From: Lactarius indigo
Lineage: Eukaryota; Basidiomycota; Agaricomycetes; Russulales; Russulaceae
Assembly: GCA_025766275.1 (NCBI GenBank)
Contig: JAFKAC010000027.1
Span: 699,069-763,068, forward strand
DNA: 64,000 nt
Reading direction: 5' to 3'
Shown: positions 33,316 to 64,000 of the stretch, in pieces
Layout of the letters: each line of letters begins with the position of its first letter
Numbering within the stretch: position 1 is the stretch's first letter
Notes under the pieces: model-generated
Told to the model about the DNA's origin: nothing
Seen by the model: only the letters and a program-made list of their open reading frames with translations
Databases searched by the model: none
Made by a program: the position numbers and the translations under genes

Positions 33316-33434
33316 CACGGATCTAGAGGGGGCCTGGCAAGCGGGTGTCAGAGTCGCCTTATTACCTGCCGAACCTCGCGGCTGGGATGATGAACCTCAT
33401 TGTATCGCTTGATTCGGACGCACTAGGGCCTAGT

Positions 33435-34914: not shown

Positions 34915-36762
34915 TCGATGTCCGGTGAACATGGGTCCACGAATTGGACGTGATCGAGGAGCGTCGTTACTTGCTCGGACGGTTCACCTTGCTTGAACGA
35001 CGACTGCGCATTCATGGAACGAAGGAGCTGGGGGGTGTTGGTTGGGGAAGGGGATTCAGATGTGAGGATTGCTGTGAAGGACGCAGTCAGTGGAAGTGTG
35101 CACGAAGGGGGGCATTTCGACTTACCAACGAGATCGTCGGTTGGGAATTCGACTTCAGATCAGTATACTGTATGTGAGCAGGTGATACTCAGATGCACCC
35201 GATAATAGATTGGCGTGAAGAAGACGAAGACTTGGTGGCGCGGGTTCCCCATAGACCATCTCGGTGCAGCTAAGAAAGGGTGGTTTTGTATGCTGCAGGT
35301 CTTTGGTTCTCTGTGCATGAGTACTACTCGTCAGCGGGTTTGTACATCGTTCAGTAGAGCACTTATGGTTTAAGAGCCCTCTAGGCGTGGGGGAAGGCGA
35401 GGGTGGCGATGAGTAAGTAATCGGCGGTGACTCGCTCGACTGGCTTTCGTCAATGGTACTCAGCCGGCTTGGTTCCTGAGAAGTGTACGCAGAGGCCGTG
35501 GGTCGCAAGAAAGATGTGCCAAAGGGATAGACTGAGCGATCAAAGGGGATGCTCGTATCATCCGTTTCCGGTGGTCCTCGGATTGAGACCGAGGGGTTGG
35601 AGGGGACCTGGGGGCTTACAGGACGGCGTGATGAAATGGTGCTTGGTGTAGACTCAGTAACTGACGATAATAACGTCGTCGTCTCTGAATGGACCGGGAA
35701 ATGAGGGGGTGTCGCGACGGGCACAGAGACCGGTACCTGGGTCTCCTCCGCAGCGGGTTGAGGATGGAAGACTTCTATGATCTCCTCGGCAGGTTGAGGT
35801 GGAGTGACCCGGACGGCCGGTGGGGGAGAAATTGGGACTGGCTCCTCAACAGGCTCGAGGTCAACGGGCTGTGCGATGGTTGCATGGGTTCCGCGAATGG
35901 CCCCTACGAAGTAGAGTGAGCCTCATCCAACACCGCTTAGTGAGAACCTACCGGTCTCAGGAGTGTTGTCAGAGATGGTGCTCGAAGGGAATGGTCGGAG
36001 GAACGGTCGGTAATAGTGGTGTGGCCGACGCTATCGATGGCCATTTTAAAAAATCGCATCCACCTGACACCGCTAAGCTCGACATCACAAATTGCGTACA
36101 TATTTTTCTCGCAGACATTCTCGATGAAACGAAGTTTGTTGAGCCCCGTCAATACTAATAAAATTGCGCCTGTCTAGTGTTGATGCAATTTGCCTGAAAA
36201 CTACAGAACACCTCCACTTTTACCACACTTCCAACCTCACTGTAAACACAAGCAAGTTTTTCGTCAACAAAGTCGACACCTAGTGGAACATGAGGAACAA
36301 AGCAAGTTAGCGTCCATGTACAAGGGAAAAGGTAAATTCCGATATGCCTCATGAAAAAAAATCTCTTTACGGTAACTATATTGCGGTAAAGAAGGTTCCC
36401 ACCGGATGGAATGAACAAGGACACTGCAGGGAAAACGATGAAACAAAAGGGAGGCCACGCTGTTCGCCGCAAGGCTCTGGAAGGCTTGCGGAGCCGTGGG
36501 CAACCGACCTGGCAAGTCATGTGGTGTCGACGATTGCTGGATGCCATATTTAGCACCCATGCCAAAGTCGTGGCTAGGATAGTCAATTCAGCCCGGCCAT
36601 GATTTTCTACGCTTTCTGTCTTTTCCGCCTTCGTTTGTTGTCTTCGTTACCATCACAGTACTACTACCCGCTAGTGACGCCCGCATATAATACATTGAGG
36701 ATACACTGTCTGACAATGCACGGAGGTTACGCCGCTCAGTTGTCAGGGTTATCCACCCAGGC
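34915..36762 (-). repeat. Left arm of a long inverted repeat (partner 62153-64000)
   Basis: The reverse complement of this stretch matches 62153-64000 almost base for base, with a few indels: one base near 35578, four bases near 36305 and one base near 34995. The inner boundary is sharp at acccaggc/gcctgggt (36762 and 62153). The outer boundary cannot be set, because the right copy is cut by the window end. High identity implies a recent event. Confidence 0.95.
35155..35724 (-). CDS. Pro/Ser/Thr-rich open segment in the left inverted arm
   Basis: One minus-strand frame is open from about 35890 to 35155 and reads VEEPVPISPPPAVRVTPPQP, then TIDESQSSESPPITYSSPPS. After a probable intron it resumes at about 35070-34925 with LTSESPSPTNTPQLLRSMNA. 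In the left arm this frame runs on, while the right arm has a one-base loss near 63915. No catalytic or membrane motif is visible. It looks like a disordered N-terminal region of a larger protein; start codon uncertain. Confidence 0.4.
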   Translation of the reverse strand: MPVATPPHFPVHSETTTLLSSVTESTPSTISSRRPVSPQVPSNPSVSIRGPPETDDTSIPFDRSVYPFGTSFLRPTASAYTSQEPSRLSTIDESQSSESPPITYSSPPSPSPTPRGLLNHKCSTERCTNPLTSSTHAQRTKDLQHTKPPFLSCTEMVYGEPAPPSLRLLHANLLSGASEYHLLTYSILI

Positions 36763-36882
36763 TCAACCACGTCAAGACCACCCTCTAGGCATCAACATAA
36801 ATACACAGGTGCGTTGTTGACATGACATATAAGCGGATGCTCTACTGTCGTAGAACTGATATTTTTCAGTCGTCGTCGATAT

Positions 36883-37140
36883 ATGCGTTCGGGACACGCC
36901 TCCCACGCTGGGGTGTTCCTGACCTGGGGCCGCCGTGTGCCGAGCTCCCCGTTTCCCCTGACCACAGTCTCCCATGTGCAACGCTGCTGGCGGATGTCGA
37001 CATTGCGGTTGCAGGTGCCATCGCACAGACGATCTCCTATCCATTCGAGGTCGTACGCCAGCGCGTGCAAGTAGTTGGGCCAATGGAACCCTGGCAGAGA
37101 TGTGCCGCAAAGTTCCGAAGGGACAATAACGACACTGTGA
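36883..37140 (+). pseudogene. Mitochondrial carrier (SLC25-type) fragment
   Basis: The plus strand reads DIAVAGAIAQTISYPFEVVR near 37000-37055, which contains the carrier signature Px[DE]xx[RK] as PFEVVR, followed by QRVQVV. A second frame just upstream reads HAGVFLTWGRR, as in the even-numbered carrier helices. The two frames do not join and the other carrier repeats are missing, so this is a broken fragment of an inner-membrane transporter. The AQTxSYPFEV form recalls the LEU5/coenzyme A carrier branch, but that assignment is tentative. It begins about 120 bp inside the left inverted arm. Confidence 0.65.
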
Positions 37141-38689
37141 ACTCGCAGCACAAAGACGATAGTCAATCCAACACCCGTCAACTGAAGGTGAATACTTCAA
37201 TATTTGAGTCATGCCGCGTCTTATCATTATCGGATCAGCTTCACGCAGCATAATCACGTAGGTCTTTTTACTCTGCTTGACAAGTTGCCTTAAGTGGACA
37301 ATTATATTGTTATTCGCACATTCGACACAGCATCGCTACGTGGCGTCGTGGACTATGGTGGTACGAGGATTGGTCTCTTTCTTTATATATACTTACACCA
37401 CCTGGCATCGATACGTGTGTATTTTTATGGAATGAAATCGAATCATATTGTTTTTTATATATCCTAAAGCGGGATTGGACATCGGAAATGCATCGATTCC
37501 TAGAACTCTCATAGAACATGTCATTGCCAATCGAAGTAATCCGAAATTTAATCAACGTCATCACCTTGCTTGCCAAGGTCATATGGCAGGTCGATATTCC
37601 GGGTGAATCGTAAACAAAGCCAAAGTGAATCTTGTTACATAACCTTTGACCCATTTTCGGTGAATTCCGCCACCCCACACAGGGAGGAAGTCTGTTATAT
37701 AATCACTTTCTTCGTTCGCTGTATGATTCCACAGATACTCTGGCTTCCGCTCCCTCAGTTGGGCAACCTCCATCAAGAAAACTGTGTTCTGCGTTTCAAC
37801 GGTGCTAGGGGATATGGTAGGGGATTGACTTTAGTCATCATTCTTGGTACATTACGCTGTCTTGGTGACAAGATTGGTCTTGACTCTTGAGACCGTAGAT
37901 GAACGAAGAGGGTGCGTTGAGTGCTTCCAGCACATGCCCATGCTCACCACCACATACGCACAGGGCCGCTGTAGTGATGAGCTGGGCTGGGCTCAAAGCC
38001 CAGGTTGCCTAGCCGTCAAAGTGGCCTCAAAGCCCTCGCCCGTGACTTGCCTTTCTTGCACCTCACGTCGCTGTCCAGCGCGCTCAACCATGCTTATCAT
38101 CTTCCATCATCTTTATATCCCTGGCTCATCAGAGTCGCTTGTCAAATGCATCGGCTGCGCCGCACTGTCGCGCTGCGCCATTGCCTCCTTCGCCGCCACT
38201 ATCCCTTTCAACACTTGTCATGAAGACGCGGACGGGCTCCAGCCCAGTAATCAAGATATGTATATTTTTTGGGTTTCATTTTGTTTCTTACTGAGTCTTG
38301 GACGACCTCTATCTCCCCAGCACTTGCAAGAAGTGCCCCCCATGCCGCACCCCTCAAATCCCCACCGTCACCGCCTCGCCTGCACGCAAACCCGCCGCTA
38401 CCTCTACCCTTCGCCACCGGGAGTCCACCATCACCGCCACCCCGTCACAGCGCCATCACAACACGGCGTGCAAGCCCCTCTTCAAATCCCCACAACACCG
38501 ACAGCGCGCAAACCCCCCTGTGATATCAACTCAACATGGCACACAAGTCCCGCCATGACGCAAGCCGCAAACGACGGAGGCCACTGGCGACGGCAGCAAT
38601 ATGGTGACAACAACAATGCGGCGATGACCGCGACCGTGACGGAACGCCTCGTGCCTCTACACCGCCACCTCATCCGGTGCCTGTGACGT
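37141..38689. other. Gene-poor stretch
   Basis: AT-rich to about 37900, then GC-rich. A long plus frame at 37844-38686 (280 codons) is Pro/His/Arg/Ser-rich, overlaps equally open frames in the other phases, and looks like composition rather than a protein. Confidence 0.45.
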
Positions 38690-39290
38690 CATCCTGCTCG
38701 ACGGTACAAGTATTGGCAACAGTGTCTCTGTTTCTGGTGCCGTTCCCACGAACACGACATCATCGCCGGTAGGTCCTTTTCCTGTCCTCGCCCCCTTCGG
38801 CGTCGGCCACCGCATCTTCATTGCTCATCTTATTGACGGCTCCTCCGCAGACGGCACCTCTTACCACCTCAGGCACTTCCACTACCAGGACATCTAAAGG
38901 TTCAAGCTCATGTTCATCAGATGCCGCCTCGGCCATCCGTCTTGCAGGCAGTGGCGCTCCTGTTGGTTTCGTCACCATCGTAATGGGCGCCGATGGCCCC
39001 ATTAAAGTTTACGGTCCTTCGAGGTTCAGAATCAGCATCCTCTCAAAGTCCATCTTTTACTGCATCTTCAACCTCGTTTCGTCTTGCTGGTGGGCGTCTT
39101 GGTGCTATCGCTACTCGCTTGGAGCGCGCCATCGCTCGCTGGGCGCGTGCAAACTGGGCAGACTCGTCTTCCTCACTAAATTCAGAAACATCATCAGACT
39201 CCGAGCGACCATGTCCGCGACCATGGCAACCCAAGACAACAACACAGGCGGCGTTACGACAACTACGCGCCGACGACTGTAGCAACGGGA
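38690..39290 (+). CDS. Possible spliced Ser/Thr/Gly-rich gene fragment
   Basis: A frame reading ILLDGTSIGNSVSVSGAVPT ends at a GT donor near 38767 (GTAGGTCC). After a CCGCAG acceptor near 38850 it resumes as TAPLTTSGTSTTRTSKGSSS, then SGAPVGFVTIVMGADGPIK. An overlapping downstream frame (SSQSPSFTASSTSFRLAG, RLERAIARWARANW) is also coding-like. Start, end and joining are uncertain and no family is recognised. Confidence 0.3.
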
Positions 39291-39811
39291 GGAGACGGAA
39301 CGTCGTTCCCTTTACTCACTACAGCGTATACTTATGTTGAAAAAGGAATATATTTTGTTGCTCCATTTCTCACATTTCCTTTTTTTTCACCTTTGGCTGT
39401 CGTCTTGCACAGTAACGGTGCTTTCCCACGACCAAGCCCGGGCCCCCTCTACACGGCCAGGCTGATGTTTTGAGCAAGCCCAAAAGGCCCAGTGACGCAG
39501 AGACGTGTTGAAAAACCCTACCAAAATAGATACAGTTTCCATGCAACTGGCTCCCACCAAGCAAGGTCATAGTCGACAAAGTCGACGCCTAGTATACTAT
39601 ATGGCGGGAAAAGTCGTGACTGGATAGAGATCAAGCGAACGCAATCAACTGGAAACGATGGACTTCCCACAGGTACTCATACAGTATGTGAAACAACTCG
39701 GCTTGTGTCAGCGCTCAAATCGTTCAAGCTCAAGTGTCAAGACTCAATAGTCTGTAAGTAAGAGCGATTGAAATTAGAAATATTTAGCATCTCGACTGTT
39801 TAGTTTGAGAC
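39291..39811. other. Spacer
   Basis: No gene recognised. Confidence 0.5.
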
Positions 39812-41771
39812 TTACGCGATCACGTCGGAAGAATGGGCGAACGAATATTTCTCCATTTTCGGACACAACACGTGTTTTACATAGAGTGCTTCTCGACCTT
39901 CAAGCCATCTGGGGTCGTAGGCATTGATCGGAAGGCCTGTCGGCACATGCACCTTCTTATGAACTTTCTGGGACCCGATACGGATGTGAGGAAACGCACC
40001 GCGCTTGTCAAGAGACCAGCTATTGATATGGTTTCGGTGATGCAGCTGGTCAAAGACCTTGAGCCAGTTGTGTAGGTCGGGGTGTCGCCAATCGGGTTTG
40101 ACAACTGTGTATGCGATCCGCTTCGAGTTGCAGTCGACATCAGATTCATCTGAGGACATCCCATTGGATCCCAATGCATCTAATATATCGAGGTGCCTTT
40201 TGAGTGGATCAAAGAGCTTGGCGATACCACGGCGGCGTTGAAACAACTACGTTGTACATGAGCAATTGGTTGCAATAAGGATAAGAGACCCACTCACTTG
40301 GTATTTGCGCTGTTGCCTGCTATGCTTAGACCTCTCAGAGGCCCTATCCGCTCGCGAGAGCGCTTCACGTTTGTGGCGAGACCTAAAACTCCTGATCCGA
40401 TTGGTGAATGCTCTTTCTATCGCCTGGCGCATCTCCTGTGTATCATCGTACTCCATCTTCTGGACAAAATGATCGACGATAACATGCCCAGCAGAGATAT
40501 TCCAAGGTGACCTTGGTTCCCCCGCTATGTCGATCATGAACTCAGCAGTTGTGGCGTCACAAGCCTTTGCGCCATGACCTGTGTGCTCCCACTCGGTTGA
40601 AAACCTGGAAACCCGAGAAGGTTCAGGCGTGCGGCCATAGGGTGGGTTCTCCTTAAGGAGGCAGTCGAGTTCACTTCGGACCAGTTTCTGGACCAGATAA
40701 AGTTAGCACAGAAATGTGTCGCAGGGTTGATGTTGGGCGTAAACTGACGGCCAGCACATTTTTTCTAACCCCTCGGCGCCTTGGACTTTGTCCACGTCGG
40801 CTTTGTCTCTTCCAACCGCCGCTGGAACCACCCCCCTGGTACAATGAAAACCCTTATCAATCTGGACGGACATGGTGACGGTAGTATGACTTTCCTGCTG
40901 GTGACGTTCGGCGTCCTGGGAATTGGAGGGGGGCCCACGGTCAGCTCTCGGGGACCCACGCACATAGTGGCCACTCGATGGGACAGCCCGATGTTGGCTC
41001 AATCTGCCATGGCCGCTGGGTATAGGTAGCGCTGGGGAAACCGTTGATGGCCTCGATGGTCGAGGTGACAAAGGCTGCAAGGGTTGCCTAGGCGGTGTGA
41101 AGGGCTGAGGCAACTGCTGAGAATCCTTCGCACTAATTAGTACTGAATGTATAAGCCAAATGAGAGAAAAGCGTAGGGCGTACCGCAAGACTGCTACTTT
41201 GGTATCCATTTTGAACCGCTGTATCGTTACCTATGTCGAATTCCTCGGCTGATCTATATAGTTCCTGGTCCGAGTCAAAATCAAAGGGAACCGGGGAATC
41301 AGAAGCGTAGAAGTCTCGTGGGTCCCAGACATGCTCGTCCGGTGGTAGGATTTGCTCTACTTCAACCGAGCTTCTGTCGAAAGTGTCAATGACACTTGCC
41401 GGATGCAGTGCAGACTTCGGCCCCACCTTCCATGAGGACTCTGATTTGTCCTCCCCTTGCCTCTACCTGGGTGCAATAACGCTGCTCGTGGAGTGGCTGT
41501 TAACTCGTCGAATTGCTAGTAATGTGATTGCCTCCGAGTCAGTATTAACACGTCCTAGCGGGGATCAAATATGGCACACCTCGGAGCCATGACTTCTATC
41601 TCCAATTCCTGTGGAAGAACCCGATCGGTGTCGCTTCTTTCTTTGTGCTTGAAGCAAATTGAACTGAGCTTTCCGCGACTCAAAGTAAAAAGTACTTACG
41701 CGTGTCATGTTCCAAGCCAGGTTCCGAGTCTGCAGCCTGAAGTTAAATCGTGGCACATCTAGCCTAGGCAC
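39812..41771 (-). CDS. Unidentified multi-exon gene, probably decaying
   Basis: The 3' half is well defined. Exon 40298-40687 reads LVRSELDCLLKENPPYGRTP, ends in KHSRQQRKYQ and splices in phase 0 over 51 bp to exon 39812-40246 (FQRRRGIAKLFDPLKRHLDI, GMSSDESDVD, WRHPDLHNWLKVFDQLHHRN). Upstream blocks are near 40750-41105 (Pro/Ser-rich, TVTMSVQIDKGFHC) and 41145-41450 (PPDEHVWDPRDFYASDSPVP). The 5' block at 41700-41753 (PRFNFRLQTRNLAWN) has GTG where an ATG would be expected, and the next block near 41590-41640 changes frame. No domain known to me; acidic and basic clusters suggest a nuclear or disordered protein. Confidence 0.5.
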
Positions 41772-41783
41772 GACGATGGGATA

Positions 41784-42074
41784 TTACCATCGCCAGGACT
41801 GAGAATTGTGCCGCTTTGCGTGTCTCTGACGGGATATGTTATGGGCATCAGACTCGTCATCAGCATCAACAGCTAGACATGTCTTCGTCCTCAGATGGGC
41901 TTGAGTCACGTGCGTAACTGTTGTTTTCATGATCCTGGCGGGTACTAGTAGCCGCCCCCGCACTGATAGACTCTGGTTCGGAGGTAGTCAAAGTCAAACA
42001 AATATTTGATTTTACATGCAATAGTACTCACTGAAAATACCAGGCCCCTTGTGACTGACGGTGGCTCTTGCCAT
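41784..42074 (-). pseudogene. Small acidic-protein gene with one frameshift
   Basis: Exon 42032-42074 (ATG, MARATVSHKGPGIF) joins in phase 1 to exon 41784-41972 across a 59-bp intron. Exon 2 reads SISAGAATSTRQDHENNSYA, then SPSEDEDMS; the frame then slips by one base near 41878 and continues ADDESDAHNISRQRHAKRHN to a stop. Immediately upstream of the 39812-41771 gene on the same strand, it may be its lost 5' part or a separate small gene. Family not recognised. Confidence 0.4.
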
Positions 42075-42823
42075 GTCTAAGTAGGTCGAAGCGTAGTAAC
42101 AGTAGGTATACCTTGCGTATGTTTGCAGAGGCACTCAAAACGGGTACTTTGCGTTTCTGGCGTCCGCATTACACCCATATATTATAATACACATTTCACC
42201 AAGAGTAAGGATCTGCATTGTACTCCTTAAAAGGTCTCGGGCACCTACCATTGAGATGAAACGCTTAACGCACTCATTGTTACCCATTTCTAGTAAGAAA
42301 GCCGTCTGTTGCACCTCTGGATCTCCCCATCTCCGCATCTATTGTCTTACTTCTCTGGACTAGTTTCTCTGACTCAACGTCGAGTCAACGACCCTCCAAG
42401 CGACCCTCGTTCGAGTGCCCGCGCTCTATGTGATTGTTATATTTGATTGATCAACTCGGCCAAGAACTCGGCCCGGCACAGTGCTAATACGTTGAATATG
42501 TGAACTGACACTCGAGCACCGTAAGTTCGTAACCAAATTCTTTTGTTTGTTGCCTTTGGGCACCCACATGTTCCATCCGTGTTTGCAAAAACTGATTGGA
42601 AAAAACATGTTCTATTCGCACCAAAATAGCGCTTTCATCGGATATGAGTGCCTTGAGTGTCTAACTCGGTTGGCCCTACCGCTCTGCGTCTATAGACTCG
42701 GATTTCCTCCTTTCTTAGCCATCTCTGGGCTACTTGCTCATGACGCCGTGATATATAATGTCCTGTGTCAGTCGCTCATTCACCGCCATACTGTCTCCCA
42801 GCCCAATCCTGTCAGTTCAAATC
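42075..42823. other. Spacer between divergent gene pieces
   Basis: No gene supported. It separates minus-strand coding (ending at 42074) from plus-strand coding (from 42824) and could hold a bidirectional promoter. Confidence 0.4.
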
Positions 42824-46576: not shown

Positions 46577-46749
46577 TTGATTACCCGCAGTAGTAGGCTT
46601 GGTAGTAGGTTTGTATCTACATAAATGAATCGGCGTGCCGTTGGTCGACTGGTGTTGTGCATTGTCCACCTTACGTGGCTCTATAGTTAGGTGTTATCAT
46701 CTGTCTCTCTGCGACCTCGTGCGTGTACTAGTATCTCAAGAACTTAATA
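46577..46749. other. 3' flank of the orphan gene
   Basis: No feature seen. Confidence 0.5.
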
Positions 46750-48995: not shown

Positions 48996-51687
48996 GATGA
49001 GGCGTGGTCACGCCTGGTCACAGTCCCGTTTTGAAAGGTTTGGGACTCCGCTTGACTGTTAGTGGCTCCTGCTCCATTCCGTTTTCAGAAAGCAGTCAGC
49101 CACCCAAATCAAGCCAAGACCGCCGGAAGCGGATGCCAAAAAAAAAAAAAAGGTCAGAGATGAGGTCAAGGTCATATTGGCAATATTAATTGAGATAGAA
49201 ACGTGTTGTACAGCCCGGAAGGTACAGTACCACCACTTAACTAATTTTATCTCAAATTTTACTCAGTCTCGGGTGGTGCCGGCTGGCTTTACCGCCGATG
49301 TCCAACCGCAGCCTCGGTCTTCGTTCCCCCCCAAAAAAAAAGAGACGAGGGAGAGGAGAAATATTGACAAACCCCAGCCGCAGGTTGGTGGGTACGCAGG
49401 TCGTATTCTCTCCTTTGTTTTTGTTGTTTTCTGCCGGGCAACGAGGCGATTCGGATGAAGTGTGACGTGCGACGTGTGGCCACAAAACCGACATGTAAAA
49501 TGTCGTCGTCGTCTGCTGTCTGCCGTAAAATGGGTGTAGGTCTCGACATAGCGATGCACTACAGTACCCCTTGGTGATAATCGACCTGCGGGAGAGCGAC
49601 AGTTTTGGCACGTGCGGGATTGGGCGAGAAACGTGTGAGAACCCGTGGGGAATGGCGCAGCACAGCATCTTGCAGCGAGGTAAGTTGCTGGCGCCAGGTG
49701 CAGTCCGGGTCGGAAGGTACGGTCCCTCCTACTGTACTGTAATACAACACAAAAGGGGTTCGCGGCCTAAGAAGGGCAAGGCACACGACGCCTCAGGCGT
49801 ACCTTGTCTGTTCCTGAACATCGCAGAAGGTGTGGTGGGTGATGACATATTAATTTGGCACGCACAGTGGTACCAGCGCGGTGGGGGTGTAACTTATTTG
49901 CATACATAGCGACTGCGTGCCTGAGGGGGAGGTGACGCGAAGGGCGCAGGGGTCGGGGCCGCTATTCGTCCGTGCGCAAGCCCAACAAGGAGCTGTATAT
50001 ACTATACTTCCGTGTGGACCTCGAGCCGGACGGCCTCACTAGTGAGCGGTACCCCCCGGCGGTCGGCCGCGCGAAGGATCAGTTCCCAAACACAGAAATT
50101 GTCGATTGAGCTCTGGAAACATGAGAGTAAACCGCAACAGGAAGATAGGAGCGGCGCTTGCCGCGAACGATCCCACTGGGAGGGATCTGGAGGATTGCTT
50201 GTAAGAGTGTCCCGAGCCGGTGCTGAGAAAGAAGTGCAGAGGAAAAATGCGTACATCATCCTGTCATTGTGGGTGTCACGAGGCGAGGCGAACGACGAAT
50301 TATGCGCGCATGTATATGCATACATCCCCACGTAAACCGTCCACGGCAGGGATACAAGTAGAATAATGATACCTCTCTCCTGCGAATTCGCAATTATTGT
50401 GTCAAACTGGTTCATGCTTACGTTCTCTGTCTCGCATCAATGTTTCATCGAATTTCGTCATTCGACTCCTTGAGTCGCGACATGGTCGGAATACTTGAAG
50501 GTGGAAGGTCAACTGATACAGGATTCAAATCCGCGGACACTTTCGCCGTTTTGAAAGTCAGTTCAGGGCACCAATCCTGAAGCTCTGGAAACTCATCCCA
50601 GGCTTCTCTTTGGCCCTGACAGGATCGGGAGTTACCATGCATTCTTATACAATGTTCTCTCTTTTCCACGAGTGCACCTGCTGCCGAAGATTCAGATACC
50701 GCTGATGGGATTGATTACAGCCCCCCTCAACTCACTCTGAGCCATCCAACTATGAACCCACATGTTCGTTCGCTTGCTTAGATACACCCAATCCGCTCAT
50801 ACTACTTCGTACTATCCGTACAGTAAATATCAGTAATGGAGTCCGCTACGAGGAAATTCCTATCGTTGTGGATTTTGCCGTAAACATTAAAAAAACAAAC
50901 AAACTCCGTTCTGACGTTCCATGTTCGATCAGAGCACTGTTTTGGAATAGGTAAATGATGAAGGAATGTAGTCTAGTCCGAATGCTAAGGGCGCCCAACC
51001 CCGTTCGCAACTCAGTTGAAGTAAGAGAAGCGCTGCATCTAAGTTTTGTTATGGGTTGCTGTTCAGTGCCATATATGGATACGAATACGATGTCTGGACC
51101 ATATATTTACAAGGGTCAAATACTGTAGAGATTTATGGAGGCGGGCAGCCGGATAGGTGAGCAACGCTTGGAGCAACGCGTGAGCGTTGGAGGTCCGGAT
51201 GCATCTCAATATTATTATTATTCATAGATAACCGTTTAACTACGCTAATATTACGATTATCTAATATGTCGGTCTCAGTTTGCCGGACTGTGTCCGTTCC
51301 GGGCTGTATGCAAGGCATGTATGAGCCTGTATCAACGAATACAGATGCTAATGAGAGCATATTCAACCTCGGTCTGGCGTATTCTGGCATGTCTTATTGT
51401 ACTGCTAGCTGTCGTGCATATCTAGACCTGGCACCATTATGAGGTTTGACATCTCATGAGATAACGAAATTTCTTGGAAATTTCCTTGGAAATTTCATGG
51501 TCGGAGTGCATATCCAGATTAGAAGAAGGACTACTCCCGCAGATGAGTTCGGATTGTTCCCAAGACAGTGGGGCTTGTGATAAGAGAACAATGGCTCTTA
51601 GAATAAGTTATAAGTACTGTAGGTTGTACTGTAGGTTAACCGAACCAATTGACGCCACCCTCCCTTTCTATTCATTCAGTCGTAACG
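48996..51687. other. Gene-poor stretch with A runs
   Basis: A runs occur at about 49138-49152 and 49331-49340. A minus-strand frame at 50445-50740 (ALVEKREHCIRMHGNSRSCQ, then EFPELQDWCPELTFKTAKVS) is coding-like and could be an exon of an unidentified gene. Nothing else is supported; 50700-51687 is AT-rich with no open frames of note. Confidence 0.4.
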
Positions 51688-54649
51688 ATGAAGCGTTCTT
51701 CCGATCGGATAACTCCGCCAAACCCACCGCCATCAAAGCAGGCTAGGCAAGAGCATCCTTCCCGCCAGGATGAGGTTCGGTCCCCCTCCCGTTCACTCAC
51801 AGTTTCCGAGGAGACCATCAAGTCTTTGCGTTCTGCTCTCCAAAACGTATCTGTATCCACACCCGACTGGAAAGAAGAAATCTATTTCACCGTTCAGGAG
51901 CGATTGAGACAAACTGTGCCCAAGGGATCAGAGGGCAAGTGGGTTCCTAAAGCTAGGTTCCTCAAGAACCTTCGACACCAAGAACATGAATTTCTTGCGG
52001 TGCTCGAAAGGGCAAGAGCTGACAATGCAAGTCTGGAAGAATCATGGGCTCTAGCGACTCACGGTGAGTACTTTTTCTGCCCCACAAACAAGTCGTCATA
52101 ACTAGCTCTCAGATGCATTTTGGGTCGTCTCACCTTCCGTGTCTATGTCTCAACGTAAGGCCCCAAACCTGGCTATTCCCAGAACTTGTCTGATGGCACA
52201 CACCCCAAGCTGTACTGAGTAGAACTAACCCAGAGTCGCAGGAGAAGGGTGAGTCCGATCCATTTAGCATGTTAGTCGTGCTCGTTAATGGTACCCTTAG
52301 CTGTTGAGCTCTCTTGGAGCGCAGAATTTATCGGACATCTTCCACTGGTGGCCCTCGAAACGCACGTCCGTGACCAAATGAAGTTGGTAGAAATGTACGC
52401 CCGCTACTGTTCTATTGTTCAGTCGTCCGGAATGGGCAAGTCTCGCTTGTTGGACGAGTTCTCAAAGAAACATTTCATGATCCCAATCAATTTGCGCCCA
52501 GAAGATGCCCAAGGTGTGTCACATCCATTTCACTTTCGTGGTTCTCAAACCTGGTCTGTTAGGTTTCCCCCCTGCCGATGATGTCAGTTCGTGATTTCCT
52601 CACCCACGTCGACAAGAAAAACAAGAGCATGCACGTGTTGTCCCTCTCCCGAGCAAATCATTTCTTCCACGCATTGTTTCTCAACACCGCTGAGGTCGTT
52701 GCCGACTTCCACGTTCGAAGCAGAGCTGAGCGGATACAACATTTCCGGGCGTTCATGTCAGAAGGTCAGAGTATGAGCTCCTCCGGGCCCAAGCGGTCTC
52801 GATTTTACAAGGACGTTATTACTAAGGCAACTAAGGTACGCCGTACCGTTCTGGAGTCCCTCCATTTCTTTCTAAAATGCCAGCTTCTGAAGGGTTTGGC
52901 CGGTGCTGATCCGAGCAACGCAGATTTGAAAGCTGCGCTTGAGCAACTCCGAAAATGCATCAATGACGGGGACTCTGTAAAGACGGACGAAGGACTCCCA
53001 GACATTTTTGTCGCGTTCGACGAAGCCCATCTGTTGACGATACCCTTCGACGAAAGTGATCGGTCTAATTTGTTGAGCTCCGACAGGCACTTCAGATGTT
53101 TTCGACAGCACCGTTGTTTACGTTTTTCCTTTCTACCACCGGGAAGGTCTCGCAATTTACCCCACCCCGCGGTTACGACAACTCGAATCGCATGAACGAC
53201 GGCAGACTCAAAATACCTCATCCTTTCATTTACTTGGGCTTTGACCAGCTCATGATCAGTCGCAAAATTTTGGACACGTACAAAACCCTTCTGGATGTCA
53301 CTTCGTTGGATTGTATAGCCCACATGGGACGGCCTTTGTAAGCGGTGTCGTGCTACGCCTCTTCGGATTTTCTCATATTTTGTCAGGTGGGGTACATGTT
53401 ACGACTTCGGCGATGATCAAGTACGTGATGGACTATTCCACTTCGCGATACAGAAGTTGCTCTGCAGATTGCCAATGCCGGATGAGGCCCTCTCAGAGGC
53501 CCAGAAGTGTGCTGTTTTATCACAACGGTTGGCGCTGGATATCAACAGCACGCTGTATGTCACAGCTCCGCTCAACTATCAGGAAGCGGAAAAGTTACAT
53601 AACCAAATATCCAATCACATGCGCATATGTGAGGTGATCGGGGAGGATATCGGAACTATACGCGGTGCTGCCGCATCCGAACCTCTCCTTTCGGAGGCAG
53701 CTTCCTGTATCATGAGAGGCGGCTACGGCTTCAGCCTACCTGATGCTCTCATTGAGGTTCTTAGCGGGTTTTGCATCAATCCCGGCGATCGTGCAGAATT
53801 GTTGGTCGCCGCTTTCTTCACACGCGCTCGTGATATAGCGGTCCTCGGGAAATCCCTTCCCCAAGGAGCGATATCTTCTTGTTTTTCGGTCACTGATCTA
53901 CTCTTGTCCCTCTTTTGCGAATCAGTTTACAAAGTTGTCTCGAACGCCGTCCCATCACTCTGCCACTCAGAGACTACACAACCAACGCTTGGGGAGGTTT
54001 TCAATAGCGCAATGATGCACTTCAATCACTTCATCAAGCCACAAGAACAAAAGCTCTTGGCCCGGCCTTATCTTCTCGCGTTTATGTCACACGGCGCGGC
54101 CGCTTTGGGTGCTAATTGTCAGCCAGGTGTCGACGCTGTCTACCCGTATTTGTATGGCGGCACCGACCTCGACGTCAAGAAAATCGGTTTCATCCTGGTC
54201 CAGGTGAAGAAGAACGACTCCAGCAGTGACGAAGCTCAGGCCAAGATCTTCCTGAAAATGGATCCCTTTGATTGTGGCCTGGTTACCGGACCTGATTCCT
54301 ATTTTCCTATCCCGATCATCCGCTTCGTCTTCGCTCTCGGTGGCAAGGAGTCGGGAGTCACCCGGAAGATGTATACATCACCATCCGATGGTGCCTTGTC
54401 CATTGATAGAGGTGGACGGCCGCGCTTCACATAATACGACTTCTGGTGCTCCGGAATCTATCCAAACATTTTCCAGGCTGTCGAAGAAGCACCCGAGAGG
54501 TGGAGAGCATTATTAGACGACGTGGATCCATGGAGGACATTTTACAATGGTGCACAGTTTCCTGACGTCCTACGCTCACAGTTTCCAGCTTGTGGGAGTA
54601 ACGAAGCCCACTTTAGCTCTTGGTATGCAGATGTCCCTAGTACGTAGTA
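51688..54649 (+). pseudogene. Crinkler-like P-loop NTPase / PD-(D/E)xK nuclease gene, broken
   Basis: Starts MKRSSDRITPPNPPPSKQAR in exon 51688-52063; small exons follow near 52119-52154 and 52235-52249, then 52301-52513. Walker A is seen in QSSGMGKSRLLDEFSKK (about 52421-52470) and a Walker B-like element in IFVAFDEAHLLT (about 53006-53042). The C-terminal part has QPGVDAVYPYLYGG and ILVQVKKN (about 54121-54215), a D...QxK pattern like the restriction-endonuclease fold fused to NTPases in Crinkler (CRN) proteins. Breaks: frameshifts near 52583 and 53070 and an in-frame TAA at 54432, after which the same frame stays coding-like to 54649. An intron at 53338-53387 is phase-consistent. CRN-type proteins are DNA-targeting effectors linked by comparative studies to transposons. 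Family assignment is by motif only. Confidence 0.6.
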
Positions 54650-56144
54650 CAACTGTAATCCTGAGGCTGGCGGACTCGGACTTTGAACGCTGTTTCCAAT
54701 CTCTTTTTTTGTACGCCTCTTGCTTACCATGACTCCCCTTTTTTTCACACTCTTATTAGCACACTCTTATTGGGATTTAGCGAATATATGTACACGGGTG
54801 GAGACTCCCCTCACCTCAGTGCATTTGCCAGCCACATCGTCGTAAATGCGTTGTCAAAGCGGGGATTCAAATACCCACGGATAGTTTCCATTTCATATTC
54901 TACTATCACCTCACCCTGGTTCCTCCTACGCGACGGTGGCGGCCACGACACGCATTCGGCAACGTCTTTCTTCCTTCTCACTTTTAACTGCTGACACTTG
55001 CATTTTGCAGTGCATTTGAGTTTATGTGGGAACTCGCGTCCAGAAACATTTCAGGACGCTGGTTGTGTGCTTTCTTCTTTTGCGGCTCAGTGAGGGGTAA
55101 AGCATAGTACGTGACAGTGGACATTACTGTAAGTCGCTTGGCGCTTTCGCTTCTGTCTGCCTTCTTGTCCTTGGCTCTTCACCGGTCACTCCACATTCAT
55201 CTTTTCCATCTCTGCGAACTTCTCTCGTTCTGAGCATCCCATCCACCTGCACGGTGTCAGTATCTGCATCGATAGATGTTGTCTTTTTGCATGTTCATGC
55301 CGCACCTACTGGCGTGCGTTCCACGTAGTCCATAGCGTGAACAGCACGTCTTGCAACTTCCTCAACCCCGTCATGCGACTTTGTAAACATTGGCACCGCC
55401 TTGGATGGTCAGGTCACCATCCTATTCTTCACCGACAATCCTGACCCGTAGTCCCATATCGACTGGCATTTTAATGCGTATGTCCTCTTCAGTTTTATTG
55501 TGTTCTGTTGCTGACGCTGATCACTTCTGCACGTAGTTTTGCTTCTTTTTCCCGCTGAACATGTTCCTGACGCGCCGTCCGAGGACACCCACATCAGTGC
55601 GTATACACTTTTTGTGAGCGTGCAACGCCTAAACAATATCACTGCAGCAGCATGGGATTCTTCCCACGCCGTGTGTCGGAACAAAACGATGACGACACCG
55701 TTCTTTATGAGGTTGCCTTCCCTCGCAGGATGTAATACACAAGAACAATAACGACACTCTTCTTCATAAGGACGCACCCTGACCTTCCCTGCCTGTCCTC
55801 TTCGGAGAATATTGTGAGCGCTCTTTCAAAATCCCATGTCACTGTCGTCGCTGTGTTTTCGTTCTCGGCAGAACCAACCGCACCCCCCCGTATTCGTCTG
55901 TCCCGTATCTCTCCTGTCTCCGGGTCCCATAGCAAAATCAGATAAACGAAGTACAGCAAGATACACAGAGCGATCGTGAGCCATCTCACGATATGCATCC
56001 AGCCAAATGTTCAAACGCTCAAAGTCCGCTCTTATTCGTCAGACTATGTCTCAGCTCTCCTAGGCACGTCCACCTTCCATTGTATAAATCGTATTGATGA
56101 CTACCGTAAGTACAATTCGGCAACACGCTCAAATGCTGATGACC
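54650..56144. other. Gene-poor stretch
   Basis: Only overlapping short frames on both strands. A minus frame near 55810-55998 starts with a hydrophobic run (LTIALCILLYFVYLILLW) followed by DPETGEIRDRRI, possibly a membrane-protein relic; it is not joined to anything. Confidence 0.35.
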
Positions 56145-56894
56145 TCAAATCTTCTTATACAGTACAGTGACTTGAAGGCCGCGATTTCTTTGCGAGAGCT
56201 TCACACATAGATTTTTCGTACTAATAATATACCAACACTGCGTCCTCACTTGAGCCGGGCCCTCCACTGGGAATGGCAAATGAACCAGAGGTCGAAACAT
56301 AAAGGTGAATAACAACCTCTTTATATGAGTCGGAAATGAGGCTCCGAGCTCTACACAAGCAACGCACTCCCCCATGTACCTTATGACGAAAGTTAGGTGG
56401 TCTAAGTTCTAAGAAACAGTAAACGAAACTCACTGAGCAATGGCAGAGCGAACGACCAAGTCAGGTGGCGCTCGTCTTACAAATGGCTTCCTTTTTCCGA
56501 CAAACAACACAGCGATCTCCCCACACCAGGGAATATGAGGGAAGTCGCGCTTCAAGTTAGGGTTGGGGCCAAGGCGTGTGTCGAAATAGGAAGAAACCAA
56601 GAGAGTGTGGCCGGCAACTCGTATCAGAGTGTCGAAGACCTCTGGTTGGGAAGCACTTGGTAAGAAGAATGCACCCTTGACGTCTACGTAGGGAGGGTTA
56701 ATAATGCACCCGCCGTGTACTGGCAACTCTGCATTAAAGCGGTACGTGATAGTTTGGCGCGGCCATCTCCCCCATAGATAGCCATTCACGGTGTCAATCC
56801 TGGTCTGAAGTGTTGAGTTAGAAATTCGGTCGTTTACATCGTGAGCAAAGGCACTCACGGGAACATTAAGGTATGAGCGACGATGAATAACCAT
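56145..56894 (-). CDS. Orphan three-exon protein, about 213 aa, apparently intact
   Basis: Exons 56859-56894 (ATG), 56434-56804 and 56145-56379 join in phase across two 54-bp introns, the second with a CTAAC branch site. The protein starts MVIHRRSYLNVP and reads GYLWGRWPRQTITYRFNAEL, PPYVDVKGAFFLPSASQPEV, HIPWCGEIAVLFVGKRKPFV and then YMGECVACVELGASFP. The end after about residue 177 may be changed by a further intron (GTGAGG donor near 56245). No signal peptide or named domain. The even codon pattern and clean splicing argue for a real gene; I cannot give a function. Lies inside the inverted-repeat-bounded segment. Confidence 0.6.
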
Positions 56895-57607
56895 TATTGA
56901 TGTTCAGTACTTCAGTGGACGTGTCAGACACTAGACAAGAGCCACATCTCGAGCCGGTATGCCTACGTCTTAAATACGGCGTCCATTGGAAGTTTACTAA
57001 ATCGTTACTCGCCAGTGGAGTCCAGGGTATTCCCATAGCCCGGATCATAATCGCAAGCTGTGATAGGCTGGAGTGCCAGTAAGCGCATAGAGCTTGCGAC
57101 GACATAAGATCGCCCTGCCAGTCGAGAACTAATTCTGACCATGTGATGCTAGAGACAATCGACCCTCCCTGCATCATTGTACTACCGAAAAGGCCTTGGG
57201 CCGTCACTTACTGGCTAGATGGACACCAAATAACACGATTGTGACTCATTTCTAGGCGAGAGACCTATTGTCTGCGCTCTTTCTGGGTCTACGCAAGGGT
57301 CTATGTGTGCATTATTACCTGTTTCTGGGTCCCGTATTTAATCATGTCCATTGTCGTACTCTTCTAGACTAGTTTCCTCCGACCACCCCGCGGTGACTTG
57401 TGATGGACACCTCACCTACTAGCTATAGGGTGGTAACGGATACGAACATATTTAAACCGCTAGCTGAATTTCTAAATGTTTGAAATGAAGCTATATGCGA
57501 CGATCCTGGGCGCCCCATATATGTTGTGGTATTTGAATTCAGAATGTTCCCAGAGGTACGGTGACGCCTGCGGTATTCAAGCACCCGTGGCAGTCATATG
57601 GCGCTAA
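56895..57607. other. Upstream region of the 56145-56894 gene and spacer
   Basis: A minus frame at 56866-57207 (SELVLDWQGDLMSSQALCAY) overlaps the gene start in another phase and could be part of an upstream exon or chance. The rest shows no feature. Confidence 0.35.
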
Positions 57608-57887
57608 CCCCGACTTCGGACTCCCCCCCGACTTCGGTCACTCAAAAATTCTTACTCATTTATTCTCCAATCTCACCCAAATTTATATATACTATCCAGT
57701 ACTATTTATGAACAATCCCCAACCGTTTTTTTAATAGAAATCTTGTTGTGTCGCAAAAAACGAGAATTGGGTGGTTTGTCACGCTTGTCGACTGATGGTC
57801 GGGGTTTTATTGAGTAAGCTGAGCGCCTTCCAGAAGCGGCCCAGAAAGTGGCGGCCAATTCGGCACTCGGACTGCCCGAAGTCGGGG
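57608..57887. repeat. 280-bp segment bounded by inverted ccccgacttcgg words
   Basis: ccccgacttcgg occurs at 57608-57619 and again at 57626-57637, and its reverse complement ccgaagtcgggg at 57876-57887. The interior is AT-rich with tatatata near 57686. Lying 270 bp before the transposase start, it could be the subterminal repeat zone of that transposon, or a small inverted-repeat element. Confidence 0.6.
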
Positions 57888-58155
57888 TCCAACACAAGGA
57901 AATGATATACCTCATTCGCTCTTGGCATCACCGAGGTTTTCGTGTAATTTTTGTTCTTAATTTGATTTGGAGCTTGTCATGCCTATTGTCCTATTGTCCG
58001 CAGATCTCTGTGTTATACTAGCAAGACTCAATGGATGCTCAGCGCTCAATACTCAGATCTACGAACGGTGGTTTTTACGCCCATTGACAAGCCATCTCTA
58101 ACTGTGCCTCAAAGCCTTTTGGTTCCCCACATATCGTCTTTTCGACCTGGCACAT

Positions 58156-61100
58156 ATGCCTGATGCAGAGCCTGCGGACTCGGAGCTTCTCTCTTCCCTG
58201 GATGCGGAGCTTTCGGCGCGCTCTACTTGGATGCCAAACGTCGACACTCTAGACTTCGTCAACGACCCTATCAAGAATGGACCCTACACACGTCAAACAC
58301 CTGACCAGCTCAGGCAGCCTAACGTTGGCCTGTATGCGCTGCAACCGACACGCAGGAATCACATTATCTTGGAACATGAGAACAGACTTTGCGACATCCT
58401 AATCGCTTTGGAATCGATCGAGACTACCGAGGCGGTGGAGGGCGTAGAAGACCGAGTTTTCCAGGAACTTGTCAGGATAAATCGATTGAAGGAGGCCGAG
58501 TGGTCGGGTCAGCGGAGTAGGCATGGTATCAACGGCGCTATCGTGAATACAGGTATGCTTTCATCGCATGCCAGTGCTGCCGTCGCAGCTGACGATTCCT
58601 CAGAAATCCACTTCCTTAGGAAACACCCGAAGAATACAACTACCCTTGCTATATATATCACAACATTGGTGATGTATATTTTATATCGCCTCCCACGCCG
58701 TGGCGCGGCCGTTCTGCTGGCGGGCATGAGAAGTATCTTGATGAGCCAAGCGGCACTTCTCCCGTTGGCGAGTGAAGTCCCGAAAGATCCACGGCGGCTT
58801 CTCACACTATACAATCTCGATCCTGTCACCCACAGTTACGTCTGCTGTCCCGCTTGCTATTTTTTATATCCACATTCGGTTGGGACGACCAAAAAGAGGA
58901 AGGCATCTGCTCTTTCCAGCGGGTTTCCCAATCCTGTGGGAAATGGCAATGACGACATCATCGATGTCCCGCTAGTTTCGTCTGCCCCAGCTCATTGTAC
59001 ACACCGTCGTGTTCGTTCAGGTTCTGCTTGCGGCGAGCCCTTATTCGACAACACCACGATCAATGGCAACGTTTATGTCGTTCCCCGGTTCAAGTACGAG
59101 GCACAAGATCTGAAGGAATGGCTCGGGTGGCTACTCTCGAGGCCTGCCATCGATGAGGAGGTATTCAAAGCCTTTCGAAAACCCCGCAAAGAGCGCATGG
59201 AGGATATGTGGGATGGAAAACATTTGTGCAGGATTCTTCTAAAAAAAGGCGAACGGTTCCTCCCAGGACCTGTAGACGAGACGCGTCTTGCATTTTCATT
59301 CTCGATGGACAGTTTTAACCCTTATCACATGAAAGAAGCTAAGCAAACTGTCTCGTCAACAGCCATCTGGCTTACTTTGCTTAACCTACCCCTCCACCTG
59401 CGAAACCGCCCCGAGAATATGTTTCTTGCTGGCGTCATCCCTGGGCCAAGGAAACCCTCACTCTCCGATGTAAACCACACAATCAAACTTCTCGTTGACA
59501 TTTTACTAGAGTTCTTTGACCCTGGCGTCTGGTATTCCAGAACAGCGGGGCATAGGCAAGGTTGTCGGGTTCGGGCTATCTTGGTACCCGTTGTCTCGGA
59601 TATGCTCGCCGCACGGCAAGCTGGTGGCTTCGCGAGTCCGACGGCGGCATCTTTCTGCACACTCTGCAGCCTGAAGATTCAAGACATCGAAAACCTTGAT
59701 AGATCTACTTGGCCAGAGCGAGACGTTGGAGCATCTCCGGCATGCAAGGAAATGGAGGGACGCGCAAACGATTGACGAACAGGAGACCCTCTTCAAAAAT
59801 CACGGAATACGATGGTCCGCTCTTCTCGATCTACCTTATTGGAACCCCGTTCTTTTTACCGCCATAGAGCCTATGCATGTTTTTGACGCTGGGCTCTTCC
59901 AGACTCACCTTCGGCAGATCTGGGGTATCGACACTACTGCTCCAAGTGGTGACGGGATTGCGTCGCAAGCTGTCAGGGAAATTGCTAGGCCATCAGCTTC
60001 CGAAATGGAGAAGTGGTACGACATCATACGCACTGCAAAGAGTACAGGAGTACTTCGAGAACAGCTTACTGGAAGACATTGTGCCCGATACCCTATGGCA
60101 CATCTGTGAGGACAACGATCTACGTCGTGCAGGTAATAAGGGACAACTAGCCGATGCTATTATAGAATGGGTAGGTCGTCGAACGAGACAAAATAACAAT
60201 AATCACGGTGGATATACTCACGTCGAGACCAGCGTCAGAAAGTCTCACCCGACATGATCCGACTTCCGGTCGTCCGTTCAAGTTCAACAGAACTTACACA
60301 ACCGGCCGCCGTAGTTCGTAGCGCCAGTGACGCAGAGTCCCGGAGCATCCGTGAGGGGAGCGTCGCTACAGATGACACCGTGAGTGGTCCGTGCTATCCG
60401 ACAGTTACTTGGCTTGACTGATTGATTCCTGTTAGTTGGCATCAAGGTGTACTGGTAGTCTGAGCAAAGAAAGACAGCCCTCAGAGGAGGAACAAAAGGC
60501 CATTGGCAAATGCATCGAGCAACTCATTCACCGAGCTGCCCAAAATACTGTGTTGCGGGCAAAAAGGATTATTCTTCAATTTGTCTGTCGCGATTACTGT
60601 CACATGACACAGGAGAAGCTGAATGAACTTCGCACCAAAGACGAGCTATACGCCGCCGCCGCTGCATGGGTACGTGCGCGACACACCAGTAGAAACTTCA
60701 TTCAATATTCAGACAGGTGGAAGAAAACGCCATTTCGCCAGGGGATTCTGTGCAGGAGGGAAAGACCCGTTCTATTACTGGAGCCGTCCTTGGGAAGGAC
60801 ATTATGGAGGCCGTTTGGGCAGACATGGCCCTCACTGAGCTTCCCTCCTGGGTGACGGACGTGCCTCGTAACTGGGGTACTGCGACGCGTGGAAAACTAA
60901 GTGCAAACAACTGGAGGGTTATCTGCACCGTCCACCTACCCATCACTCTAATAGGGCTTTGGGGAGGGGATGATGCACCGGAAGACCGGCAACACAAACT
61001 CCAGAATTTCATGGACTTAGTTTCTGCCGTCCAGATTGCTAATCTACGATCGGTCTCCAAGCAGGACATTGAGCGATATGAGCATTACATTCAACGCTAC

Positions 61101-62085
61101 TTGGTTAGTCTCAAATCACTATACAAGCTCACGAAGGTGAAGCCTATCCACCACGCGGCCCTGCACTACGGCGAGACCCTTAGGAGTTTCGGGCTGGCAC
61201 ACACTCACGGAGCTGCCTTTTACGAACGATATATCCACTCCATGCAGACCCAAAATCACAATATGAAGCTCGGTTTGTGATTCATTTGCTGTGAGATATC
61301 GTGCACCAGGCACTCACCACATTCTCAATCAGGCAGCCTCGAATCGACATTCATGCATAGCTCCGCAAGAGAGGCAAAGTTGCAAGCCTTGCTCTCTGAC
61401 CACAGTGAAGTGCGTGAACGTGTTGGCGAACTTGTGAAAACATATGAAACATTCCTTGCTGAGGATGTCCGGGGAACGCGCTTGGCCCATATGGTCGGTA
61501 CAACGAAGCTGACGCAGCAGCCGGATATTGCCTTTGATGAGACACGTCTACGTGACTCGGACCTCACTGATGCCATGCTCCTTCTGCTAGTGCAATTTTT
61601 AAACCGAAAGCACCGGACAACCGCATATCATACCGACGGTTCTCTAGGCGACATGGTCTCACCAAGGGCTAAGCTCTTAGACAAGTTTTCCCTTCGAGGG
61701 GTTCAGTATTCAACCGCGGGAAGTCGAACGCGCAATAGTCACATCCTCTTCAGACTTCCACAAATAGACGCATCCGAGTTATTGGCTCATCCAGAACCGG
61801 GGCAGATCACCGATATTTTTCTCCATTCTCAAGTCGGGTCACACCATCCGCCCATCTATCTGTGCATTCGACCTTATGAACCCCTCCGATTGGAGCTTAG
61901 CGACGTCGACAAATCTTATAGGCAATTCGGCTTTTCGGGAGGCTTTTTATGTGAACGAGCGCTTGGAGCCTATTGTTGTTGACCATTCCAACGTCATCTC
62001 CCACATAGCAGTGACCCCGCTGGAAATACGGGGGTGCGAAGTTCTCCACGTCCTCCCTATGGATAGGGTTGGTTTCCATTTGTAA
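58156..62085 (+). pseudogene. tnp2-like (CACTA/EnSpm) transposase, frameshifted
   Basis: The first open block (58156-59727, ATG) has a Cys cluster (YVCCPACYFLYP, CTHRR, SACGEPLF) and the core typical of fungal tnp2 proteins: FSMDSFNPYHMKEAKQTVSS, RNRPENMFLAGVIPGPRKPS, LLEFFDPGVWYSR and QAGGFASPTAASFCTLC. After a frameshift near 59727 it continues with NHGIRWSALLDLPYWNPVLF and AIEPMHVFDAGLFQTHLRQI. Another shift near 60040 leads to LWHICEDNDLRRAGNKGQLA. Introns occur near 60165, 60380, 60670 and 61278. The C-terminal part has PRNWGTATRGKLSANNWRVI and THGAAFYERYIHSMQ. A third shift near 61930 precedes the last frame ending at 62085. Such transposases cut and paste DNA with short CACTA-type termini. 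Not functional here. Confidence 0.8.
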
Positions 62086-62152
62086 TAGAGGGAAAAATCT
62101 GACGGCTCGAAACTAGTTGCGAATGTCATCCACGCGCGCTGAGGATGCTGGG

Positions 62153-64000
62153 GCCTGGGTGGATAACCCTGACAACTGAGCGGCGTAACCTCCGTGCATT
62201 GTCAGACAGCGTATCCTCAATGTATTATATGCGGGCGTCACTAGCGGGTAGTAGTACTGTGATGGTAACGAAGACAACAAACGAAGGCGAAAAGACAGAA
62301 AGCGTAGAAAATCATGGCCGGGCTGAATCGACTATCCTAGCCACGACTTCGGCATGGGTGCTAAATATGGCATCCAGCAATCGTCGACACCACATGACTT
62401 GCCAGGTCGGTTGCCCACGGCTCCGCAAGCCTTCCAGAGCCTTGCGGCGAACAGCGTGGCCTCCCTTTTGTTTCATCGTTTTCCCTGCAGTGTCCTTGTT
62501 CATTCCATCCGGTGGGAACCTTCTTTACCGCAATATAGTTACCGTAAAGAGATTTTTTTTCATGAGGCATATCGGAATTTACCTTTTCCCTTGTACATGG
62601 ACGCTAACTGCTTTGCTTTGTTCCTCATGTTCCACTAGGTGTCGACTTCGTCGACGAAAAACTTGCTTGTGTTTACAGTGAGGTTGGAAGTGTGGTAAAA
62701 GTGGAGGTGTTCTGTAGTTTTCAGGCAAATTGCATCGACACTAGACAGGCGCAATTTTATTAGTATTGACGGGGCTCAACAAACTTCGTTTCATCGAGAA
62801 TGTCTGCGAAAAAATATGTACGCAATTTGTGATGTCGAGCTTAGCGGTGTCAGGTGGATGCGATTTTTTAAAATGGCCATCGATAGCGTCGGCCACACCA
62901 CTATTACCGACCGTTCCTCCGACCATTCCCTTCGAGCACCATCTCTGACAACACTCCTGAGACCGGTAGGTTCTCACTAAGCGGTGTTGGATGAGGCTCA
63001 CTCTACTTCGTAGGGGCCATTCGCGGAACCCATGCAACCATCGCACAGCCCGTTGACCTCGAGCCTGTTGAGGAGCCAGTCCCAATTTCTCCCCCACCGG
63101 CCGTCCGGGTCACTCCACCTCAACCTGCCGAGGAGATCATAGAAGTCTTCCATCCTCAACCCGCTGCGGAGGAGACCCAGGTACCGGTCTCTGTGCCCGT
63201 CGCGACACCCCCTCATTTCCCGGTCCGTTCAGAGACGACGACGTTATTATCGTCAGTTACTGAGTCTACACCAAGCACCATTTCATCACGCCGTCCTGTA
63301 AGCCCCCAGGTCCCCTCCAACCCCTCGGTCTCAATCCGAGGACCACCGAAACGGATGATACGAGCATCCCCTTTGATCGCTCAGTCTATCCCTTTGGCAC
63401 ATCTTTCTTGCGACCCACGGCCTCTGCGTACACTTCTCAGGAACCAAGCCGGCTGAGTACCATTGACGAAAGCCAGTCGAGCGAGTCACCGCCGATTACT
63501 TACTCATCGCCACCCTCGCCTTCCCCCACGCCTAGAGGGCTCTTAAACCATAAGTGCTCTACTGAACGATGTACAAACCCGCTGACGAGTAGTACTCATG
63601 CACAGAGAACCAAAGACCTGCAGCATACAAAACCACCCTTTCTTAGCTGCACCGAGATGGTCTATGGGGAACCCGCGCCACCAAGTCTTCGTCTTCTTCA
63701 CGCCGATCTATTATCGGGTGCATCTGAGTATCACCTGCTCACATACAGTATACTGATCTGAAATCGAATTCCCAACCGACGATCTCGTTGGTAAGTCGAA
63801 ATGCCCCCCTTCGTGCACACTTCCACTGACTGCGTCCTTCACAGCGATCCTCACATCTGAATCCCCTTCCCCAACCAACACCCCCCAGCTCCTTCGTTCC
63901 ATGAATGCGCAGTCTCGTTCAAGCAAGGTGAACCGTCCGAGCAAGTAACGACGCTCCTCGATCACGTCCAATTCGTGGACCCATGTTCACCGGACATCGA
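62153..64000 (+). repeat. Right arm of the long inverted repeat (partner 34915-36762)
   Basis: Inverted near-identical copy of the left arm, starting 68 bp after the transposase stop and cut by the window end, where 64000 pairs with 34915. It carries the same coding-like segments in the opposite direction. A 178-codon frame at 62145-62681 is open here but interrupted in the left arm. Confidence 0.95.
63193..63761 (+). pseudogene. Pro/Ser/Thr-rich segment in the right inverted arm, frameshifted
   Basis: Same protein-like segment as in the left arm (35155-35724). Here one base is missing near 63353, which shifts the frame after SNPSVSIRGPP, and another near 63915 after MNAQS; the left arm keeps these frames open. 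The right arm is therefore the more decayed copy. Confidence 0.5.

Follow-up and report, generated by a model that had tools for sequence, protein, structure and literature searches.

Transposons of the CACTA/EnSpm type have CAC...GTG ends, classically CACTA, and terminal inverted repeats (TIRs) that usually measure tens of bp, a short length that is usual but not defining. The fungal EnSpm elements are described with CAC..GTG ends, 3-bp target-site duplications and a transposase of the Transposase_21/CMC kind (PMC12730594); the element of Lactarius indigo that is presented here resembles them in its ends, its duplications and the kind of its transposase, but departs from the account given in that source in its ~9.4-kb TIRs, its size of 45-63 kb and its WD40 and nuclease-like genes. 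The enlarged En/Spm elements of Chondrus crispus (16-20 kb, 4-5 ORFs) are, like our element, enlarged CACTA elements with extra genes, but they are two to four times smaller, and the section that describes them makes no mention of long TIRs (PMC6431247). SmTRC1 and the other TRC elements share Transposase_21 and terminal inverted repeats with our element, but are smaller (about 5-9 kb) and are reported with short TIRs (10-54 bp) and 2-bp duplications (PMC1636069). Among giant mobile elements of other kinds, Teratorn consists of a piggyBac transposase joined to a herpesvirus, with 18-bp TIRs (PMC6431247), and Starships are present in a basidiomycete (PMC13066641). Among the matches listed in our search of open-licence PMC papers, judged by title and the start of the abstract, no paper was found that describes the present element.

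The window, i.e. the whole stretch of 64,000 bp that was analysed, corresponds to C190:699069-763068 of the L. indigo assembly (90.3 Mb in 291 contigs, referred to here by our contig numbers), and at its position 64000 contig C190 (763,068 bp) comes to an end. We have found that its element is a giant CACTA/EnSpm DNA transposon of ~44.7 kb, which measures 63.3 kb, with nested insertions, on contig C278; this assignment follows from the CACTG/CAGTG ends, the 3-bp duplications and the Transposase_21 domain, while the size, the arms and the gene set make the element a new variant within CACTA/EnSpm. The preliminary description had proposed a large transposon, as these same features confirm, and had judged its arms too long for a standard CACTA element: the size is indeed exceptional, with measured arms of 9,367-9,982 bp in the window's family, which exceed the usual length of CACTA end repeats by a factor of hundreds, but the ends, the duplications and the transposase keep the element within CACTA. 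The element shows that, alongside the recombinase-driven Starships, mobile elements of 45-63 kb can arise in a mushroom by a DDE/CACTA route.

The inverted copies that were noted previously, 34915-36762 and, in the opposite direction, 64000-62153, are real: they align at 99.03% over 1852 columns, with 10 substitutions and 8 gap columns, a likeness far above chance, and their inner ends are sharp (36762 and 62153), enclosing an interior of 25,390 bp (36763-62152, forward strand). They are the inner parts of ~9.4-kb TIRs. The arm size of at least 1.85 kb that had been attached to them does not stand, since position 64000 is the end of the contig and the figure measures only the point where the assembly stops: the right arm as assembled (62153-64000, reverse strand) is an inner part cut by the contig end, while the left arm reaches out to 26781. 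A search for the outer ends and their target-site duplication, and for further copies with the same arm/interior junction, had been suggested; the tnp2-side junction occurs at the same base in nine of nine copies, the left end lies at 26781 next to a TAA, and the right end is located on C246.

The outer end of the left arm is defined by the other copies, which match leftward beyond 34915 and stop at 26780/26781, where the sequence begins CACTGTGGGC; the left arm (26781-36762, forward strand) measures 9,982 bp, including a nested insertion of ~608 bp. The same CACTGTGGGC starts 11 of the 11 outer ends that were read in the window's transposon family, the outer termini being CACTG...CAGTG. The trinucleotide TAA at 26778-26780 (forward strand) is the left side of the target-site duplication, with the right side on C246. 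A complete copy in a single contig, C278:95374-158717 (63,344 bp, with nested insertions), has arms of 9,955 bp each and is flanked by AGA on both sides, and two elements of a related family lie between TGA/TGA (C248, ~61.5 kb) and TAT/TAT (C113, ~61.3 kb), so that 3-bp duplications are found in all three elements that have both ends in one contig. In the C113/C248 family, the TIR measures at least about 343 bp, and the 1.5-kb stretch directly after the transposase has no inverted repeat of itself in either contig. The window also contains a paralogous unoccupied site, a control outside the element (5004-6470, forward strand, in a tandem copy): the left flank, which ends with TAA, and the reversed C246 flank, which starts with TAA, when joined with one TAA, align to it at 87.6% over 1510 columns with an unbroken junction, the nearest gap being a single base about six bases left of the junction.

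The right flank and the complete right arm of the window insertion read as lying on C246, with the partner arm at C246:330170-339536 (9,367 bp); by coordinates, the element measures 27,417 + 17,330 = 44,747 bp across C190 and C246. At 49792-50192 and 53797-54197, C246 equals the window in 802 of 802 bases, while C80, C236 and C278 differ there. Against this pairing, the window and C246 differ at six places in 56995-57753, C246 is closer to C80 than to the window near its own end, and the two ends of the insertion are on different contigs; the alternative that C246 belongs to another insertion, raised by the differences near 57 kb, is outweighed by the flanks, the arms and the identical bases at 49.8-54.2 kb. 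Over its last ~6 kb (57763-64000), up to the contig end, the window looks like a collapsed consensus of the repeat. This reading is drawn from the near-identity to two other contigs from ~57.7 kb onwards, with 0-2 substitutions per kb and extra indels against C80 and, in part, 0-11 substitutions per kb against C236, while the three sequences differ by about 3-19 per kb to the left of that point, and from the inner arm, where the three contig-end arms are within 1-2 substitutions of one another and show the bases found in most copies. In our reading, contig ends inside this repeat fall into a consensus, and giant elements of this kind break assemblies, as in the window. The window's own right arm, which at face value differs from the left arm by 10 substitutions and 8 indels, was therefore rejected as the arm of the window insertion, the C246 arm being the sister.

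At least 11 outer ends, at 97-100%, correspond to at least about seven insertions (C190/C246, C80/C74, C41/C236, C278, C219, C4 and C281), of which the three that span two contigs were paired by their compatible duplications together with their sister arms; the counts from our homologue and genome searches are lower bounds, and the homologue searches scored the ~8,000 candidates with the most shared words. In the region 33416-36762, the arms within one insertion differ at 3/3347 positions (C190-C246), 2/3347 (C80-C74), 13/3345 (C41-C236) and 14/3344 (C278), while arms from different insertions show 33-98 differences; ten of the 13 arms enter this comparison, the three contig-end arms being left out. 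Opposite arms are sisters in four of four paired insertions, which are also duplication-compatible, while the pairs C219-C246 and C4-C278 are duplication-compatible yet non-sister. Long arms are not confined to the window's family: in a diverged family, the 3' end of the transposase and the next ~0.6 kb recur inverted ~36-44 kb away on C226, C277, C224 and C79, pointing to inverted arms at the kilobase scale. Two more probes likewise occur in inverted orientation on either side on C226, but at unequal spacing, so that its arms differ by indels. As a separate observation, C277/C224 and C157/C281 carry their matches in near-mirror sets, which suggests that some regions are held twice in the assembly, perhaps as two haplotypes.

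The origin of the likeness between the arms can be weighed against the full-length comparison of C190 and C246, where 23 substitutions fall in the outer 2.8 kb (26781-29566) and three in the inner 6.6 kb (30175-36762), the border between the two patches being an insertion that is present in the left arm only (29567-30174, ~608 bp, with an imperfect ~9-bp duplication, absent from C246). On C278, both arms carry a ~600-bp insertion at the identical site, which the arms of the window, C246, C80 and C236 lack. Gene conversion between the arms is favoured by this patchiness, seen in one insertion, as the source of the likeness within each copy: conversion tracts that are halted by large heterology would explain the sister arms, the patches and the shared C278 insertion together. 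The sister arms in all four paired insertions would, taken by themselves, fit equally well a process in which the same transposon has its arms made identical at each insertion by fold-back or copying, as in LTRs, and not by later conversion. If whole arms were copied, they should diverge evenly along their length, so the patchy C190/C246 arms, which are the one insertion with a full-arm comparison, count against it, and we consider it unlikely. With gene conversion as the preferred process, sister arms that diverge patchily allow arm-to-arm conversion to be tested in a DNA transposon, one copy at a time. The 26 substitutions that separate the two arms (26781-36762 versus C246:330170-339536) are without exception transitions, as expected from cytosine deamination or a RIP-like process. 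Relatives of the ~608-bp insertion (78-94%) occur at other sites, in C80, in the arms and interior of C278, and within or next to the tnp2 of C112 and C266; it is Mutator-like by the length of its duplication only.

The remaining alternatives concern the nature of the unit itself. Long inverted arms on both sides of a gene-bearing interior could be produced by a composite of two complete smaller elements, inverted, that carry the DNA between them, as the preliminary description had suggested, but such a structure is very unlikely here: the inner end of the arm (36762) has no CACTG/CAGTG terminus, leaving the composite without support, and the 13 full-length inner-arm matches listed include no recognisable free-standing arm, nine of them adjoining the tnp2 side while the others adjoin, or read on into, the opposite side of the interior. 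Its second proposal, an inverted duplication that trapped a transposon, is likewise unsupported, since about seven different sites show these outer ends together with this inner junction. The position of the window's right arm at a contig end, together with its collapsed appearance, would be compatible with a misjoin that created the inverted pair; an artefact of this sort is highly improbable, as C278 has both arms, the interior, both flanks and the 3-bp duplication in one contig, nine copies have a common junction, and the right flank is supplied by C246. Extremely improbable, lastly, is a virus-like or other giant element of the Starship, Maverick or Teratorn kind in place of CACTA: the large size is shared, and Teratorn, likewise a giant DNA transposon, also has long inverted repeats (PMC6431247), but the tnp2 transposase, the CACTG ends and the 3-bp duplications belong to the CACTA side, and no viral genes are recognised in our element; polymerase, capsid and DUF3435 (Starship captain) do not occur among the Pfam families shown (25 of 26), which cover 100 of the 162 window frames.

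The transposase gene, tnp2 (58102-62085, forward strand, exon limits approximate), is supported by a Pfam match to Transposase_21 (PF02992, 58102-59775, E = 6e-8), by the codon-position pattern and by pieces that are conserved in a relative (58201-60172, 60478-61225 and 61871-62076); the last of these ends 76 bp from the right arm, in agreement with the earlier report of a tnp2-like transposase near that arm. The transposase alignment has the two D columns in 41 of 44 sequences and C(2)C in 40 of 44, the remainder being gaps. For Plavaka (PF18759), P0001, a close relative, matches weakly and below the cut-off (E = 0.098), while the window ORF matched Transposase_21.

A WD40-repeat gene is located within the arm (32227-33396, reverse strand, lower limit approximate), with a Pfam match (PF00400, E = 1.7e-8) in the exon 33004-33396 and no match to PF00400 in the two frames downstream of it; our strict WD40 pattern found no gene, and a looser one recovered it. 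Another gene (51640-54431, forward strand, exons approximate) is situated 3.7-4.4 kb upstream of tnp2; its product is probably a P-loop NTPase fused to a PD-(D/E)XK nuclease, as judged from its P-loop-like and DEAH motifs, followed by a PD-(D/E)XK-like domain (53769-54431). We take these Walker and PD-(D/E)XK motifs to be present as follows: QSSGMGKS, which is without the usual first G of Walker A and was missed by a strict pattern, FDEAH, and a conserved GxDxVYP...VQVK, where the expected PD-(D/E)XK site is D...QxK. The frame 53319-54431 has 371 residues in the window and 442 in C281, C219, C80 and C41. The Pfam search of this gene gave no NTPase match, Foldseek gave no match to its protein at E <= 0.001, and with neither query protein did profile searches against solved structures reach an E below 0.3. 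The fold comparisons with PD-(D/E)XK proteins are weak, with McrC as the best (Z 5.0, rmsd 4.1, 115 aligned) and, for the domain alone, Cdn1 (Z 4.1, rmsd 3.6, 100 aligned), the PDB matches being grouped by what we presume to be their folds. Proteins of the CR/CRN type (Zhang et al. 2016, as cited in PMC5289972) combine a P-loop NTPase with an REase-superfamily domain, the pairing that is suspected for our gene, and such pairs are linked with prokaryotic transposable elements; our gene differs in its place upstream of tnp2.

Relatives of the WD40 gene sit beside other tnp2 families, and diverged tnp2 families share it, several of them also with the second gene; owing to this recurrence, the WD40 and nuclease-like genes look like genes of the element, and one may ask whether elements of this kind bring helper genes of their own. 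The proposal that the transposon captures host genes is weakly supported, its clearest case being a mitochondrial-carrier-like fragment (frame 36801-37250, forward strand) that lies below the Pfam cut-off (PF00153, 21.2 versus 22.3 bits), with host matches of up to 58% over ~53 residues and 65% over 40.

The locus as a whole is very probably explained by a CACTA/EnSpm transposon that is moved by tnp2 and has ~9.4-kb TIRs kept alike by conversion. The predicted tnp2 transposase would recognise the CACTGTGGGC ends and mobilise the element in its entirety by cut-and-paste, its copy number rising through repair or through the timing of replication; the arms may derive from one old inverted duplication, after which arm-to-arm gene conversion would keep them alike inside each copy, and the WD40 and second genes might aid mobility, repair or persistence. 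It is also conceivable, although we advance it tentatively and with somewhat less than even confidence, that these elements form a distinct giant-CACTA lineage of the Russulaceae, in which tnp2, WD40 and the NTPase-nuclease would be a conserved set for mobility or maintenance and the converted kilobase-scale TIRs a working repair template and not an accident.

In the surroundings of the element, a long host gene unit is repeated in tandem at positions 1-26780, in three to four copies; the frame 2770-5205 belongs to the DUF6535 family (PF20153), which is common in Lactarius, and a DUF6535 protein recorded from L. indigo is related (69%) to one in the window. Two pieces of the arm, 34915-35384 and 27450-27690, have further matches of 72-79% on many contigs where the remaining arm is missing, and are found adjacent and in opposite orientation at C215:2962412-2963061 and C1:932223-932847.
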